Origin: a virus
IMG/VR virus record: IMGVR_UViG_3300024999_000430
Location: 1 to 22,425 of that record
DNA length: 22,425 bases
Direction: 5' to 3' (one strand)
Part shown: one piece after another, positions 2,998 to 17,643 of the stretch
Layout: the number at the start of each line of letters is the position of its first letter
How positions within the stretch are numbered: position 1 is the stretch's first letter
Position numbers and translations under genes: made by a program
The notes under the pieces: generated by a model
Database searches by the model: none
The model's input: only the letters and a program-made list of their open reading frames with translations
What the model was told of the DNA's origin: nothing

Positions 2998-5900
2998 ATG
3001 CTCACTGAAATAGACCTAACAAAACATCCAATAAAACCTAAATTGTATCTATGTAAACCAAACAAACAATCAATTGCAATCTTATCTGAATCTTACAATA
3101 TTCAGCATAATACAAAATTTTCTTCTGTAAACGAACTTAGTTTTACAATTCCTGTAAATCTAGAACTTAATCATCAATTTCAAAAAAATCCTCACATAGA
3201 TATGATTAAGGATAGATATTTAATAAAACTAATAAAAGATCAAGTAATTGAATATTATATGATTGATAAAATTATAGATGCAAGCGATGATTCTTCGGAT
3301 ACAAAACAAGTATCTTGTTTTTCATTGCAATATGAATTAGCAGATAAATTAATTCGTTCATATGAAGTAACTAGTTATAATGCATTGCAAGTGCTTACAG
3401 ATGCGTTATCACAAACATTATGGTCAATTGACTATATTGATCCAATTTTTTTATCTACATATCGCTCATTTAATGTATCTTCAAAAACTGTATTAAGTTT
3501 TGTCGTTGAAATCGCAGAGACGTTTTCTGCCTTAATTACTTACAATACAATTTTACGCACTATATCTTTGTATAATCCTGATAATATTGGTATAAATAAA
3601 GATTTAAGATTTTCATATGGTAATTTAATTAAAACAATTGAACAAACAATAAATATGGATAATTTTGCAACAAGATTAAAAATTTATGGAGAGAACAATT
3701 TAACTATTGCAAGTCGCAATCCAACTGGCACAGACTGGTTGGAGAACATGAGTAACTTTATGAATTTGGACTATATGAGTCAAGGATTGATTAATGCAAT
3801 TGTTGCATATGAAGCTAAAATTGTAGCAAATACAGACTCTTATTCTACGCTCTTATCTCAATTAACAGTTCAGCAAGAATTATTAACAACAAAATTAAAT
3901 GAAATGGATGCATTAGACATTCAGTTAACCATAATTTTAGATTCTTTAGATATTGCACAATCTACTTCTCAACCTACTGCTACATTAATTGCTCAAAGAG
4001 ACGTAAAACAATTAGAAATTGATGCGAAACAATTAGAAATAGATGCTGTAAATGCTCAAATAGTCATTATTAATGGTCAAATTACAGCATTGCAAAACAC
4101 TCTCTCAATTGAGAATAACTTTACGCCAGAACAAATTCAAGAAAGAAATATATATATTATTGAAAAAGAAGCAACAAATAGTAATTATACCAATGCACAG
4201 GATCTATATGAATATGGGTTAAAAGAATTTGAGAAGATTTGTAAACCTGAAATATCTATTAAACTTGATTTAATTAATTTCTTAGAAGTATTAGAAATGC
4301 AACATATGTGGGATAAGTTGGTGCTTGGAGATTTTTGCACAGTTTATTATCCACCATTGAATATTTCAATCAAGGCTAGAATAATTAACATTGATTTTGA
4401 TTATGAGAATGGAAGTATTACTCTTACTATTGCCAATGTAGAACAGATATTAACAGATGAGCAAAAGTTTCTGAACAACTTGTATAATACTATTAGTACT
4501 AGCACGAGTGTGAATATGGATAAATATAAATACGATGGAGCATATTCAACATCTACAGAAATTGAACAGATAATAAATAATACTTGGGATGCTGTAACTA
4601 GAAATATTAAAGCTGGAGTTAACGAATCTGTTACTATTGGTAGAGGTGGTATTATAATAACTTCTCCCGATAATAATTTAGATATGGTTAGATTAAATCA
4701 TTCTAATATAGCAGTTTCATCCGATGGTGGAAATACTTTTAAAAACGCTATCACAAAAAATGGCGTAATTGCAGAAAATGTGGTGGGTATCCTCGGCATG
4801 TTTTGTGAAATTAGAGCTGATCAAATAATCTTAGGTGCTTCAGGGGAAACAATTCCAGACAACATTATATCAAGTTCTGCTAATTGGAATTCATCTCAAC
4901 AAAATGCCATTGATTCAGCAAAAATCTATGCAGACAATACTTTCGTTGACAAAATCACTCATACAGCAGATTATACTGAATTAAAGGGTTTAATTGATGG
5001 AAGCGTTTCTACTTGGTTTTATGGTTATGCTCCTATTTTTGCAACAGTTGTAATTTCAACAATAGTTACTGACATAGTTATTCAACTTGACAATGTACTT
5101 GGATTAGTAGATGGAATGTCTATTAGTTTTATCCCAAAAGCTAATGGATTAGATGTCGATGGTGTATCTTTAACAACAAAAATTATTGCCACAGGTGGGG
5201 TAGATACAGTAAATAAAACAATTACATTAACAACTACAATTGGAATAGAACTTACAGCAAATCAAGTAATAATATATAATGCTCCTGCTAGTGATTGGAA
5301 TACAACTGCATTAAGAGATAACCATTTAGGAGATGTTTTCTATGATAATCTAACCGGATATGGATATAGGTTTGTTTTTATTTCAAATTTATATTCATGG
5401 TCTCTTATAACAGATAGTGCAATTACAGAAGCATTACAAAAAGCAAATGATGCTTATGATTTAGCAGACCATAAAAGGACTATATTCATATCAACTGAAA
5501 CTCATCCCACTCCTACTCCTCCCTATCAAGAAGGAGATTTATGGGATAATGGTTCTACTTTAAAAATTTGTACCCGTGTTTTAGGAAGAACAGTAGGAGA
5601 AAGTTATTCATCAGTCGATTGGAGTTTAACAAGTGTTGGTCAGTCACTAGAAGATATTTCCAGTGATAATAAGTTAACGGCAATTGAGAAAAAAACCGTA
5701 AAACTTCAGTGGGATGCAATTGTGGCAGAAAAATCAATATTAGATAATCAAGCAACAACCTATGGAATTCTTTTGCAAGATGTTTATACAATATATCATG
5801 GGAAATATAATGATTTAGATGCTTATCTCAATACATCTATAATTCCTCCCAATACTACTGCTTTATTGTTTAGTTTAACTGCTACTTCCGATATTGTAGG

Positions 5901-8900
5901 AAATGATTTTAGAACATGTTTCTCAAATTATTATACAGCAAAGAAAAATTTATTAAATTTAATGAATACTACAATCCCTACAGTCGGTACAGTAGGAATT
6001 CCAGTAGCAAATGCAGATGGGACAATAACTATAAGTTGGAGTGGTTTTACTGATAATGGTTCTGGAATTGCAGGTTATTATATTTGGAGAGCAACAAGTG
6101 CTATAGGTGCTAATAAACTTATTATAGGAACTGCAACTCAAAATGTAACATCATTTATTGATAAAACTACAGCACATAATACAACTTATTATTACTTCGT
6201 TTCTGCTCATAATAAAGCAGGGAATGAATCTTCTTTACCAGAATCAGAATGGAAATCATGCACTGCTAACAATACTAATGTTCCTTCTGCTCCAACAAAT
6301 TTAGTTGCTGTGGCAAGATTAGGTAGGATTGATATTACTTGGGATAAAAGTTCTAGCAATGATGTTGTAGGTTATATATTAGAAAAATCTATAGATAGTG
6401 GTTTAACTTATCCTACAATTTTTAATGTAAATACAAATAGTTATACTGAGTATAATATTTCTGTGTTAGGTTCATCTATGGGTAGTTATAAATATAAAGT
6501 AAAAGCGGTTGATATTATTGGTTTGGAAAGTTTGTATGTTTCAACATCTACTTCTCCAAATGTTGCGATTTATAGACCAGCAGACAATGTTGCTCCTAAT
6601 ACTCCAACAAATTTAACGTTAACACCAGATTATGATGGAAGAATAACTATTTCTTGGACAGCAAGCTCATCTACTGATGTAGAAAAATACAGACTTTATC
6701 GTAGTTTGAATAATTCAAATTATTATGTAATTGCTGAAACAACCTCTCTTCAATATACTGATTCATATTTAAAACCTGCTCAAACATATTATTATAAAAT
6801 TTCGTCTATAGATTATAGTGGCATGGAAAGTAGCTTAACCTCTGCTCAAAATAGTATTGCTGTAGATAATACAGCCCCTACTCCTCCTAACCCGACTACC
6901 ACTAGTCAATTTGGAGCCATAAAGGTTACATGGACTGAAATATCAGAACAAGGTTTAATCTATGAAATATGGAGATGTTCGGGTTCAACTTGGAGCGATG
7001 GTACAGCAACAAAAATAGCATCTGTAGCAGGAAGTGGTGCTTCACAAGGTTATTTTATTGACTATGATCCTCCTGTAGACATTCCTACAACTTATACTTA
7101 TAAATTAAAAGTTAGAGACAAATGGAATAATGTTTCAACATCTTTTAGTTTAAATTCAAGTTCAGCAACGTCATCTATACTTAATGATACAGTAGGATTA
7201 CTAAGCACTAATCCTAATTTTTCTAATTGGTTTGCATCTAGTAATTATCCTGTTGGATTTAGTGCATGGAGTTCTTATTCTGGCCCAACAAGAGAAACAA
7301 CTCTTAAAATTAATGGAAGTTATGCCTGTCGTTGGAATATAGGTACTGCGCAAGCTGGAATGGCTATGGATTCTTCAGCCTATGTTTCTAATATAGCCAA
7401 TCACAAATATTTAGTTATTGAAATTGATTTTATGTTGGTTAGTGGTGCTTTGACAGGTGCAGGAATTTTAATTAACTGGATAGGTATGTCAACGCCGTAT
7501 CATGCAACTATTAAATTATCAGACTATGTTTTAAGTCCAACTTTAGGAAAATGGTATACTGTTAGAACTTTAGTCACTAGACCACATGATAATTTAAATG
7601 GTTGGACTGGAATGACTGGATATGTAATGGCAAATAGTTACTCTATTAACGCAACAATAGCAACGAAAGATATTATTTTTGATAGGGTATCAATAAGAAT
7701 AGCAACTAGCGAAGAGATTAATACGAATGAATTTGTTAATATAATTTATCCTAATGATAAAACTACCCTTGAAGGTCTAATAGATGGTAAAATTGAATCG
7801 TATTTTACATCTACAGATCCTAATACTTGGATTGAATCAGATAGAACCAAACACAATGGAGATATGTGGTATAATACCTTAACTAAATTATTAAAGCGTT
7901 ACAATGGAACAACAAATACATGGGAATTAATTGAAGATCAAAAAGCTATAGATGCTTATAACGATGCTTCTACTGCTCAAGATACTGCTGATGGCAAAAG
8001 GACTGTCTTTGTAAATATTTTACCAGATCATCCTTCGACAATTTATAAATCTGGAGATTTATGGGATGATGGAATTTGTTTGAGAATTTGCAAACAAAAT
8101 TCAGCAACAGAACCATTTGTTTATAATGAAAATGATTGGGATTATACGAGTGTTCAACAACAGGTTAATGATATTGCAAGTGATAGTAAATTGACTCAAA
8201 GTGAGAAACAAGCAATATTAAAAGAATGGAATATTATTGTCAGTGAAAAGGCAATATTTGATACACAAGCAACAGCGTATGGTATTTCAGCATCAACTGA
8301 AAAAACTAATTATAATGATGCTTATGTTGCCTTAGATAATTATCTTAATTCTCCAATAGGCAGTGCTCTTTTAACTAGTTTAATAACAACATCAGAAATT
8401 GTTGGAACAACTTTTAGGGCAAACTTTAAGGATTATTATGATAAGAAAACTTTATTGTCAAATAAACTTTCAGATGTAATTAAAACAACTGCAGATAATT
8501 CTATTCAATCAGGTTTAAATTATAATAAGTGTTTTATTGATCAAAATGGTGTTCAGGTTAAGAACGCAACTGAAACAGAAGTCGTTAAAATGGGTGAATT
8601 TGATACAACAAATCATCTATATGGATTGAGAGCAACTCATAGTGATGGTAGTGGCTATACTCAATTATCACAGAATGGATTAGAGAGATTGGTATCAGGT
8701 GAAACCATACCTTATCAATATGAAACCTACATAATATCAGCTACGACTGTAGGAATAAGTAATTCTGCATGGATTAGCACTAGTGATCCTCAATATGCAA
8801 TTGATGTAGCTTTATGGGATGAAGGTATAACTTTATCTTTACCACCAAGATTTCATGGTAAGAATTTTCAATGTTTTTTAACTATGAAATCTTTAGAAAT

Positions 8901-9415: not shown

Positions 9416-9547
9416 ATGTTTAACACTGAAAGTGGTTTAGTGAAAATATGGGTAAGATTGGTCAAAGATGGATTATATACTTATCAACAAGTTCCAATTC
9501 TATCAAATCTTAAAGATATTGTAGGGCAAATACTGTTTGTCGAATAA
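9416..9547 (+). CDS. CD1375-like small phage protein
   Basis: A 43-residue ORF. ATG 9416 has AGGAAG (9400-9405) 10 nt upstream, inside the end of the preceding gene. The translation has the pattern 'VKIWVRLVKDGLYTYQQVP' followed by an amphipathic helix, which matches short CD1375-like or XkdX-like phage proteins ('K.Y..LIK.G..T...VP'). These lie just after the tail fibre or tip genes in clostridial and bacillar phages; their role is unknown. Its TAA (9545-9547) lies inside the stem of the following terminator, so it closes the first tail transcription segment. Assignment rests on length, position and short pattern similarity. Confidence 0.65.
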   Translation: MFNTESGLVKIWVRLVKDGLYTYQQVPILSNLKDIVGQILFVE

Positions 9548-9585
9548 TATAAATATTTAAATAAAAATATTTATATTATTCTTTT
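9543..9585 (+). terminator. Rho-independent terminator, all-A/T stem
   Basis: AATAATATAAATATTT (9543-9558) pairs perfectly over 16 bp with AAATATTTATATTATT (9565-9580) around a 6-nt loop AAATAA, followed by CTTTT. It lies at the end of the CD1375-like gene and just upstream of a strong promoter, separating the tail operon from the secreted-protein cassette. The stem has no G:C pair, so its strength is uncertain; it could act in both directions. Confidence 0.65.
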
Positions 9586-9594
9586 ATAATTTTA

Positions 9595-9623
9595 TTGAAA
9601 TTTTCCTTTCTTTATTGTATAAT
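9595..9623 (+). promoter_or_regulatory. Sigma-A type promoter of the secreted-protein cassette
   Basis: TTGAAA (9595-9600), a 17-nt spacer, then TATAAT (9618-9623): five of six and six of six consensus bases with ideal spacing. The expected transcription start is about 9630, 36 nt before the ATG at 9666, with GGGGAGG (9651-9657) as ribosome binding site. It is the best promoter in the window and follows directly after a terminator. Confidence 0.75.
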
Positions 9624-9665
9624 TATTATCAAATAATGAAAATTTAGTAAGGGGAGGAAAATATA

Positions 9666-10517
9666 ATGAAAAAGAATTTAGTTATTATTCCATTAATTGT
9701 TTTATCTCTATTGTTCTTTCAGGTACAATTTGTTCAAGCACTTCAAATCCAAAATATAGAAGTAGTAGAAACTGAAGGAATTGACCAACCTATTTCAATA
9801 CTTCAATCATTTAATTTAAAATTTAATGACAAATATAGACCAATTAATAAGGTTGGAGATCAAATGAATATTACTATGAGTATAATAAATGTTAAGGATG
9901 TTGTAATTGATGCAAAAGTAAATACTCAAATGGTTGTATGGTGCTGTAATAAAACAGATGATATTTTATGGAATTTCCAAAAAACATTTATCGAAGCAGA
10001 AGCAGGTATGTCATATATTAATAAGATTCGTTACTATGACAACACTTCTGCCATCGGTGATAACGAAGAAATATTGTCGAATATTAAATATTTAATTTTG
10101 CCTGAAACGTATCAATGTTTTAATGATGGATTAAGTGATAAATTTCTAGGAATCAACAATAATTATAAAAATATTAAAATATCTTTATCTGATCCATTGG
10201 ATGAAACTACAGTAAATAAAAATAATATTGAATTGTATGAGTCTGCCGATAAAATTAATATAGATTTTATTAGTAATACAAGCACATATAGTTTTAACAA
10301 ATTAATTGATTTTAGAATGACTCTTTCAGATGACAAAAAAACTATTACTATAAACAAAGCTGTAGAATTTGAACCAGAGAAGAATTATCATGTTGTAATT
10401 AAGGACTCAGTACAAGATATTAATGGAGTAAAACTTTCCAATCCTATGTGGATTAATTTTACCTATAAAGATTCTCAAACAAACCCTGGATTGGTGGATG
10501 TTGATAATGTTAATTAA
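9666..10517 (+). CDS. Secreted protein with C-terminal SbsA/Big-like Ig domain, probable lysogenic-conversion gene
   Basis: A 283-residue protein. Residues 1-25 are a clear Sec signal peptide (KK, a long hydrophobic core, cleavage predicted after VQA at 25), with no later membrane segment or LPXTG-type anchor, so the mature protein should be released or wall-associated. Residues ~165-275 fit a bacterial Ig-like (SbsA/Big_5) domain: 'ISLSDPLDETTVNKNNIEL', 'MTLSDDKKTITI', 'EPEKNYHVVIKDSVQDING', 'WINFTY'. The middle is not recognised; it contains the only cysteines, a CC pair near residue 97 and C at about 149. ATG 9666 has GGGGAGG 8 nt upstream. The gene has its own promoter and is co-transcribed with the next gene, whose mature N-terminus is similar (ALQIQNIEV versus ALNITNVEV). 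Placement between tail genes with private signals marks it as a moron; its function is unknown. Confidence 0.75.
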   Translation: MKKNLVIIPLIVLSLLFFQVQFVQALQIQNIEVVETEGIDQPISILQSFNLKFNDKYRPINKVGDQMNITMSIINVKDVVIDAKVNTQMVVWCCNKTDDILWNFQKTFIEAEAGMSYINKIRYYDNTSAIGDNEEILSNIKYLILPETYQCFNDGLSDKFLGINNNYKNIKISLSDPLDETTVNKNNIELYESADKINIDFISNTSTYSFNKLIDFRMTLSDDKKTITINKAVEFEPEKNYHVVIKDSVQDINGVKLSNPMWINFTYKDSQTNPGLVDVDNVN

Positions 10518-10539
10518 TGGAGGTAGAAAGGGAGTTGCG

Positions 10540-11211
10540 ATGAAAAAATTATTGTTTTATATGACAATAATAATGTTGTGTCTTTGTCATATAGGCAATG
10601 TCAATGCTTTAAATATCACAAATGTAGAAGTTCAATCTAAACCATCAATTTTAATACAGCAAGGGAGTAATGAAGATGGAGTAGGGTTATATATTGGATT
10701 AGACAATATTGATATAGAAAATTCACTTTCTAATTATGATATTGAATTGGATTTTTGTCCTACTGAGATTGATGTTTTAAATGTTTTAAATGAATCAAAT
10801 TTTGAACAATTCAGTCAAACCATTGATAATGTTTCTGGGAAAGTAATAATTTCTGGTTCAAATACAGGAACATTATCAATTCAAAAATTAGTATTTATTC
10901 CAATATCAATTAGTAATTCATCAAATTCAAAAGTCAATTTTAGTGTTAAATTCCTTAATCTAAAAGACAAAAATGCAAATTCAATTATATTACCTGAACC
11001 AGATACTTTAATCTTTCAACGTGGCAAAATTACTAAAAATGATTCAATTGTTAGTATTTCAGATGCAGTAGCAGGATTACAGTATTTAGTTGGATTAAAA
11101 AATGATAATGAAATTAATCTAATAAATATGGCATCCATTTTTCCTGATAACAAATTAAATATTAAAGATGTAATCGTCTTGATGCAGAAATTGGTTGGAT
11201 TAAGGGATTAA
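10540..11211 (+). CDS. Secreted cohesin-like / dockerin-like protein, probable lysogenic-conversion gene
   Basis: A 223-residue protein. ATG 10540 is preferred over an in-frame upstream codon because it has GGGAG (10530-10534) just upstream and opens a signal peptide (residues 1-23, cleavage after VNA). Residues ~30-150 resemble a cohesin-type beta-sandwich ('VGLYIGLDNI', 'YDIELDF', 'KVNFSVKFLNLKD'). Residues ~168-223 look like a dockerin: two repeats, 'SIVSISDAVAGLQYLVGL' and 'NKLNIKDVIVLMQKLVGL', with the typical F-helix pattern. Each loop keeps the acidic residues at positions 5 and 12 but lacks the usual position 1 and 3 ligands, so calcium binding may be weak. Cohesins and dockerins bind one another in clostridial cellulosomes and related surface complexes; finding both on a small phage-encoded protein is unusual. 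It is 22 nt after the Ig-like gene and shares its promoter. Confidence 0.7.
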   Translation: MKKLLFYMTIIMLCLCHIGNVNALNITNVEVQSKPSILIQQGSNEDGVGLYIGLDNIDIENSLSNYDIELDFCPTEIDVLNVLNESNFEQFSQTIDNVSGKVIISGSNTGTLSIQKLVFIPISISNSSNSKVNFSVKFLNLKDKNANSIILPEPDTLIFQRGKITKNDSIVSISDAVAGLQYLVGLKNDNEINLINMASIFPDNKLNIKDVIVLMQKLVGLRD

Positions 11212-11235
11212 TATTATATTGTATTATATTGTTTT

Positions 11236-11268
11236 AAAAGACTTCAATTATTTGGAGTCTTTTTATTT
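11236..11268 (+). terminator. Rho-independent terminator closing the secreted-protein cassette
   Basis: AAAAGACTTC (11236-11245) pairs with GGAGTCTTTT (11254-11263) over 10 bp, including one G-U, around an 8-nt loop, followed by TTATTTT. It lies 24 nt after the cohesin/dockerin gene stop and upstream of the baseplate gene's ribosome binding site. With the terminator at 9543 and the promoter at 9595 it makes a self-contained transcription unit. Confidence 0.75.
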
Positions 11269-11329
11269 TGTGTTAGAAAAGAATAAAAGGTTTATTTTAT
11301 CCCAAATACAAAAAGAAACGGAGGCGTTA

Positions 11330-16528: not shown

Positions 16529-16569
16529 CCCATTTCTTAAAACTTTTGTCAGAAAGGATTGAATTAACA

Positions 16570-17643
16570 ATGAATAAAAAAAGAACGCACGAGGAATTTT
16601 TGAAATTAGTTTATGATAAAGTTGAAGATGAATACACAGTATTAACTCCATATATAGATGCTTTATCCCATGTTCAAATGAGACATAATTGTGAAGAGTG
16701 TAATAATAATGAATTTCCAATAACCCCTGCACATTTCTTAGATAAAAGTAGAGGAAGAAGATGTCCAATATGTTCTCAAACGATTAGTATTAGAAAACGC
16801 ACAAGAACTCAAGAAAAATTCGAAAAAGAAATATACGATTTAGTGGGTGAAGAATATAGCGTTGTTGGAAATTATACAAAAGCAAAAGATAAAATAGAAA
16901 TAAGACATAATAAATGTTTAGACGGTAAAAGTCATCAATGGTCTTTAACACCGGATAATTTTTTATCTAAAGGTGAACGATGTCCTAAATGTGCAGAAAT
17001 ACTAAGAAGGCAAAAAAGAACAAAAGAACATGATAAATATGTTCAAGAAGTATTTGAATTGGTTGGAAAAGAATATACTGTAGAAAGTGAATATACTAAC
17101 GCAAAAACATATATTCAAATACATCATGCTCTATGTCACAGTACATATCCAATTATACCAGACAGCTTTTTATCAGGTACTAGGTGTCCAATTTGTATGG
17201 AATCATCTAAAGGCGAAAAAAGATTAGATGTTAATTTAGTTAAAAATAATTGGATTAAACTTAACCAAAAAGAATTTGAAAAATTAAGTGAAAATGATAA
17301 ATTCAATATAAAATATTTTATTCCGCAGAAAAAGTTTAAAGGCCTTGTTGGTTTAAAAGGTGGTTTATTATCATATGATTTTTATCTACATAAATATAAT
17401 TTATTAATTGAGTTTCAAGGAGAGCAACATGAAAAATTTATAAAAAGATTTCATAAAACTGAAGAAGGTTTCCAAAAACAATTAGAACATGATCGTAGAA
17501 AAAGACAATATTGTTTAGATAATAATATTAATCTTTTAGAAATTTGGTATTACGATATTAAGATAACTGAACAAATCCTAGAATCAAAACTCCAAGAACT
17601 ATCTAACTTCCAACAAGATAGTTCTTGTCTTATTGCCAAATAA
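16570..17643 (+). CDS. Free-standing nuclease with three zinc-ribbon repeats and Vsr/EDxHD-like domain (probable homing endonuclease)
   Basis: A 357-residue protein. Residues 5-68, 79-141 and 150-209 are three copies of one ~63-residue module: 'RT..E', 'YTV...Y..A', an 'I.I.H' strand, 'P..FL..G.RCP.C'. Each ends in CPxC (C65/C68, C138/C141, C206/C209) with upstream His/Cys (H39 C41 C44; H113 C116; H185/H186 C189) that could complete zinc sites, so they are probably DNA-binding. The C-terminus is nuclease-like: D270 ('YDFYL'), E281 and H287 ('LLIEFQGEQH'), then D308 and K311, then 'NLLEIWYYD'. This resembles the Vsr-like EDxHD/PD-(D/E)XK nucleases of phage homing endonucleases and DUF723-type proteins. 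Start ATG 16570 has AAAGGA at 16553-16558. It is bounded by a terminator on the left and a hairpin in its own 3' end, with no clear promoter of its own. Such genes spread between phages by cutting alleles that lack them. The exact family is inferred. Confidence 0.72.
   Translation: MNKKRTHEEFLKLVYDKVEDEYTVLTPYIDALSHVQMRHNCEECNNNEFPITPAHFLDKSRGRRCPICSQTISIRKRTRTQEKFEKEIYDLVGEEYSVVGNYTKAKDKIEIRHNKCLDGKSHQWSLTPDNFLSKGERCPKCAEILRRQKRTKEHDKYVQEVFELVGKEYTVESEYTNAKTYIQIHHALCHSTYPIIPDSFLSGTRCPICMESSKGEKRLDVNLVKNNWIKLNQKEFEKLSENDKFNIKYFIPQKKFKGLVGLKGGLLSYDFYLHKYNLLIEFQGEQHEKFIKRFHKTEEGFQKQLEHDRRKRQYCLDNNINLLEIWYYDIKITEQILESKLQELSNFQQDSSCLIAK
17593..17632 (+). terminator. Terminator-like hairpin within the 3' end of the nuclease gene
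   Basis: CAAGAACTATCT (17593-17604) pairs perfectly over 12 bp with AGATAGTTCTTG (17616-17627) around an 11-nt loop, followed by TCTTAT. It lies inside the last codons of the nuclease ORF (stop at 17641-17643). The T tract is short, so it could instead protect the mRNA end or limit read-through. Confidence 0.5.

Follow-up and report, generated by a model that had tools for sequence, protein, structure and literature searches.

A Promoter-Equipped Pair of Predicted Secreted Proteins in the Tail Operon of a Siphovirus-Type Phage as a Probable Moron for a Proposed Surface Complex

The window analyzed here is the whole of a 22.4-kb stretch of DNA (22,425 nucleotides, IMG/VR record IMGVR_UViG_3300024999_000430), which from its gene content derives from a siphovirus-type phage. 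Its genes run in the order tape measure, Dit, Tal, two small genes, a two-gene cassette, a BppU_N-type baseplate/fibre gene, a homing-endonuclease-like gene and the lysis genes. The Tal protein is 2030 amino acids long and carries fn3 repeats, the BppU_N-type product has 1739 amino acids, and no integrase gene is present in this 22-kb fragment. The cassette occupies positions 9595-11263, where a promoter, gene 1, gene 2 and a hairpin terminator follow one another; all features described in and next to it read on the + strand. The small tail-operon gene that precedes it (9416-9547, 43 amino acids) lies outside the cassette, matches PHROG 5056 (E = 5.6e-17), and is kept in two of the related loci described below, L001 and L002.

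Gene 1 (9666-10517) encodes a predicted secreted protein of 283 amino acids with two Ig-like domains, and gene 2 (10540-11211) a predicted secreted protein of 223 amino acids with a cohesin-fold domain and a helical tail. The two genes are 22 nt apart, and both have good Shine-Dalgarno sites; that of gene 1, read from the sequence, is AGGGGAGG at 9650-9657 and is kept in all four cassettes found. Signal peptides were called by eye from the translations, at 9666-9740 for gene 1, ending in VQA, and at 10540-10608 for gene 2, ending in VNA, in keeping with the pair of signal-peptide genes that the first-pass annotation of this DNA had reported. Neither signal peptide ends in a cysteine lipobox, and neither protein contains an LPXTG motif, an SLH domain or another recognised anchor. 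The mature N-termini, ALQIQNIEV and ALNITNVEV, are indeed alike, and similar starts are seen in the other cassettes. The G+C content of the cassette genes is 25-26%, as compared with 31% for Tal and 37.5% for the BppU gene; third-position G+C shows no clear difference between the cassette genes and these two flanks.

A gene-by-gene scan of IMG/VR for relatives found the same order of promoter, gene 1, gene 2 and terminator in three other contigs: 3300025012_000255 (G001, cassette locus L001), the 112.8-kb 3300025012_000042 (G002, locus L002) and the 41-kb 3300024999_001865 (G003, locus L003). The first two come from one shared metagenome sample. G001 and G002 have a tail operon of the window type, whereas G003 does not: small nuclease-like reading frames precede its cassette, further small genes and fibre-like ones follow it, and about 3.4 kb away the opposite strand carries a tyrosine integrase gene (4184-5170). 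As a separate observation, varied nuclease-like genes (CapR/treble-clef, HNH-like and GIY-YIG-like, assigned by eye) occur around the tail genes of the relatives, often adjoining the cassette or the BppU gene (window 16546-17643; L001 10637-11698; L002 8891-9853; L003 6502-7677). G001 also has, in its lysis region, a subtilisin-like protease gene (24971-26068, L021; by eye) adjoining an amidase gene. G002 (IMGVR_UViG_3300025012_000042) carries an actin-like segregation gene; its 57.7-68.6 kb region (L016/L017) encodes this ALP_N actin-like protein together with a VirB4/HerA-type ATPase, a Replic_Relax protein, a DndB-type protein and a PrgI-like protein, the last below its cut-off. G002 is perhaps a phage-plasmid with conjugation-type genes.

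The promoter, TTGAAA-17-TATAAT at 9595-9623, is of the sigma-70 type and is the sole + strand site in the whole window that matches at least 11 of 12 positions. Chance alone would place 0.63 such sites in a window, and one in 0.4% of 110-nt upstream regions, and in the promoter scan of the window 62 sites were found against 58 expected, so the match taken alone is not above chance. Its weight comes from recurrence at a matching offset in the other cassettes: a promoter of equal layout stands upstream of gene 1 in four of four, with a 17-nt spacer, a near-equal offset, and 11, 11, 9 and 11 of 12 matches. The G003 cassette retains TTGAAA-17-TATAAT, the ribosome site AGTAAGGGGAGGA and the closing hairpin. 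At the start codon position in that contig, as judged by the spacing from the ribosome site, gene 1 has ATA where the others have ATG (L003 7870-7901), and the first usual in-frame start codon, a TTG, comes 12 nt later. The closing intrinsic terminator at 11236-11263 is likewise matched by hairpins at the equivalent place in L001, L002 and L003. A second terminator, previously placed at 9543-9580 as the opening boundary of the unit, fares differently. The hairpin is real, with a perfect 17-bp stem (9542-9581) that contains a single G-C pair and is otherwise A/T, where ten simulated windows gave no arm reaching 12 bp; however, the stop codon of the small gene before it falls within its span, and it is common only to the window and L001, with no counterpart in L002 or L003. 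We therefore reject it as a cassette boundary, and it may be a weak terminator of the tail operon.

The first-pass annotation had proposed a comparison with relatives lacking the cassette, and one such relative is contig 3300024999_000193 (G004, locus L008). The BppU gene is present in this contig along with a Tal of 41% identity, and between them a fn3-like gene and a papain-like gene take the place of the cassette. G004 encodes further exported proteins, all on the - strand: a secreted protein with two Big_2 domains and leucine-rich repeats (28619-29857), whose gene stands next to that of the tape measure and has a promoter of similar layout as well as a terminator to itself, a putative lipoprotein (37857-38345), and a papain-type peptidase that is secreted and bears a SPOR domain (5734-7143). 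Since G004 and the cassette contigs carry various exported proteins, such proteins are exchangeable cargo in these phages. The proteins of the cassette were said to be unlike any virion component, and this holds: they have no significant match in PHROGs and no relatives in 50,697 phage records.

Virions often display Ig-like domains, and the cassette sits between tail-tip and baseplate genes, so we considered whether its Ig-like and cohesin-like products decorate the particle by attaching to the tail or baseplate. Both proteins have signal peptides, however, which are absent from structural proteins assembled in the cytoplasm, G004 has no cassette genes at the site, and the cassette has a promoter of its own; we regard decoration of the virion as highly improbable. 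The absence of an integrase from the fragment counts against the moron reading set out below, and so does the strand of the cassette, shared with the late genes, since the cassette may be part of a late set instead of one for lysogeny. The two proteins would then be secreted factors of the late lytic phase that alter the extracellular matrix and aid the spread of progeny or block re-adsorption to debris, with no role in lysogeny. The upstream hairpin is missing in L002 and L003, making late read-through possible, and the relative's site holds protein-degrading cargo. A late gene, on the other hand, would not need the strong private promoter and terminator that are conserved here, and we consider a purely late function unlikely.

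Gene 1 matches Big_5 (Pfam PF13205; CopC/SbsC-like) with E = 2.4e-7 and 31.9 bits against a cut-off of 23.6, the domain lying at 10167-10463, and the gene 1 homologue of L002 matches the same family at 26.1 bits. An AlphaFold2 model built from four sequences, of modest confidence (mean pLDDT 59), aligns with the domains of CopC and the S-layer protein SbsC at Z 10-11. As this alignment starts at residue 25, the beginning of the mature protein, the model suggests that the N-terminal strand is part of the Big_5 fold, with a filamin-like Ig domain (approximately residues 48-147) inserted into it. A search of an 84,980-species genome collection and of the Desulfosporosinus family, run with no positive control, gave no relatives of gene 1.

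The gene 2 protein of the window has no Pfam match by sequence, Cohesin (PF00963) included, and searches of PDB sequences with either cassette protein or with profiles gave nothing useful. Its structural model is also of modest confidence (mean pLDDT 63). With Foldseek the first 31 PDB chains are all cohesins (best E = 4.8e-6), and the model aligns with a cohesin structure at Z 13.3 with an rmsd of 2.4 over 124 residues. The homologous host module from Desulfosporosinus sp. Tol-M, moreover, scores above the Pfam Cohesin cut-off (27.3 bits against 24.1). As modelled, therefore, the domain at 10636-11025 has the fold of Cohesin (PF00963). Cohesin-type modules are the glue of bacterial surface assemblies, and no relative of this one was seen in the annotated phages searched. 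In the literature we found no paper that deals with cohesins carried by phages or with the CFI box motif, and a search with anti-phage defence profiles gave no match.

The tail of gene 2 (11020-11208) is its most conserved part, the last 63 residues being 61-88% identical across cassettes. A helix motif is present twice (ISDAVAGLQYLVGLK and IKDVIVLMQKLVGLR), a duplication score reached by 0 of 5000 shuffles, and the helices are predicted at low model confidence. This layout recalls that of a dockerin, although membership of that family is unsupported by the sequence tests. Neither hmmscan nor a genome family search gave a Pfam match to Dockerin (PF00404) in the tail up to E = 10, the tail profile scored 10.4 against five dockerin profiles where the best shuffles reached 17, and most ligand positions of the calcium loop DxNxDGxxxxxD are not conserved in seven tail-module sequences. 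The reading of the tail as a degenerate dockerin was dropped on the strength of the missing Pfam match and of profile alignments no better than shuffles.

A scan with the tail through the 84,980-species collection gave one relative, in Desulfosporosinus sp. Tol-M, for which a draft genome was obtained from a methanogenic toluene-degrading community (PMC4299902). The relative lies at the end of an LRR_5/beta-helix surface protein 1682 aa long and is 45% identical over the module, the duplicated-helix tail included. A second genome of the Tol-M family (G033) has three more modules, two at the C-terminus of large proteins and the third right behind a signal peptide; scans of 83 genomes from the class and of 398 drawn from across the phylum gave none further. 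Tol-M encodes additional cohesins and a secreted protein that ends in a true dockerin (L034 901-2181, G005 contig 31), a possible partner for the cohesin-type module. Related phage tail-tip genes are found in G011, of the same family, on short contigs only, where the parts read stop short of the cassette site, and are weakly matched in G082. Assignment of the host at the level of the Desulfosporosinus family is thus plausible. The host is only roughly placed because the phages have a G+C content of 29-31% and the module-carrying Desulfosporosinus-type genomes 41-45% in the stretches read, a gap that points to another host species, one richer in AT.

Comparison of the cassettes reveals that gene 2 has been exchanged. 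The window and L001 are approximately 90% identical in DNA over a stretch that begins at the end of Tal, takes in the promoter and gene 1, and runs to 10593, and the identity resumes at about 11282; the window and L002 are 88% identical from 10615 to 11291. A mosaic junction thus falls at 10594-10614, near the end of the gene 2 signal peptide, with L001-like DNA on its 5' side and L002-like DNA on its 3' side, and a second near 11282-11291. The exchanged segment begins where the signal peptide ends; window gene 1 resembles that of L001, and window gene 2 that of L002. In L001, the signal peptide of gene 2 is similar and the start reads FKITNVEV, and a CFI-box-CTERM domain with hydrophobic segments follows (NF041770; 95.2 bits, cut-off 40, E = 1.5e-27). 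The alignments indicate that gene 2 is modular and swapped independently of gene 1. The suggestion that the two proteins form a matched pair, made from their similar N-termini, is consequently weaker than originally stated, though the resemblance itself stands.

Both parts of the cassette bear the mark of purifying selection in these comparisons, with dN/dS of 0.28 for gene 1 (window against L001) and 0.23 for the swapped part of gene 2 (window against L002), which argues that both are working genes. These ratios bear on a further alternative, in which fragments of host surface genes were captured by recombination and are drifting as passive cargo. The likeness of gene 2 to part of longer host proteins, and the mosaicism, would fit such an origin. 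Drift is difficult to reconcile, however, with the selection, with promoters, ribosome sites and frames intact in four contigs, and with retention despite deep divergence, as gene 1 of the window is only about 30% identical to that of L002 or L003. We consider passive carriage very unlikely.

Taken together, the reading that we favor, with a probability of roughly 60%, is that the cassette is a phage moron making an exported two-protein surface complex. The fit to a moron, already proposed from the window, comes from the export signals of non-virion proteins, the cassette's own transcription signals (a conserved promoter and terminator), its patchy presence (absent from G004/L008), its occurrence in two phage backbones, and its low G+C. 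The cell envelope is the likely site of action because the cohesin-type module is common to phage and host surface proteins, and the cassette is probably used to remodel the host surface rather than to build particles. The cassette would occupy a cargo site within the tail operon, flanked by the tail-tip genes (Tal and two small genes) and the BppU-type gene; it would be transcribed independently, and the host secretion pathway would export both proteins from the lysogen or infected cell. Gene 1 is a two-domain Ig-like (Big_5) surface-type protein, and gene 2 a stand-alone copy of the cohesin and helical-tail module of large Desulfosporosinus-type surface proteins. The latter would settle on the host envelope through its host-type module, or in another phage through the CFI-box membrane segment, and hold gene 1 or a host partner there. 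The lysogen surface would in this way be remodelled, most likely excluding other phages or altering adhesion. Expression in the lysogen, contact between the two proteins, docking at the surface, and exclusion or adhesion are the steps that we infer. Superinfection exclusion in particular is a possible role, put forward tentatively, and the surface role may instead be adhesion or matrix building.

A more specific version of the surface complex would be a two-protein docking system. In it, gene 2 would be an exchangeable anchor, either a cohesin-type module or a CFI-box segment, whose conserved N-terminal ITNVEV strand binds gene 1 or a surface protein of the host, and phages would switch the attachment of the complex by swapping one module behind the signal peptide. 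The ITNVEV strand does resemble the gene 1 strand aligned with the Big_5 domain of that protein; even so, we offer this version as speculative and rather doubtful. If the broader surface-complex reading is true, a copy of a host docking module that places a phage protein on the cell surface would give lysogenic conversion a concrete route in Desulfosporosinus-like anaerobes, which have been little studied, and the swap of gene 2 would show which part of the pair selection keeps and which it exchanges.

The cassette shares with phage morons and prophage accessory loci (e.g., PMC7067206) its own promoter and terminator, its non-structural genes and its patchy distribution in related phages. It differs from the known morons (PMC7067206) in its content, a cohesin-fold and a Big_5 protein, which was not seen in the annotated phages searched, and in being known from sequence alone. 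Ltp of temperate Streptococcus thermophilus phages is a phage-encoded surface protein, and superinfection exclusion is an established role for proteins of this kind (PMC3952083). Compared by description only, the cassette resembles it in encoding exported proteins with a proposed action at the host surface; Ltp, however, is a lipoprotein from the lysogeny module (PMC3952083), whereas the cassette makes two proteins with no lipobox from within the tail operon. In CwpV of Clostridium difficile, the variable C-terminal part carries the antiphage activity (PMC4737114). This too is an exported surface protein with an exchangeable C-terminal part, again compared by description only, although CwpV is encoded by the host, as a phase-variable, repeat-containing protein of the cell wall. 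Cohesin modules (Pfam PF00963) of cellulosomes and other clostridial surface proteins share the predicted fold, the host homologue lying above the Pfam cut-off, while gene 2 is a single short exported phage protein with putative dockerin binding. Finally, the likeness to the module of the Tol-M LRR_5/beta-helix protein extends over the whole module, but where the Tol-M copy closes a far longer polypeptide, the phage module stands alone behind its own signal peptide.
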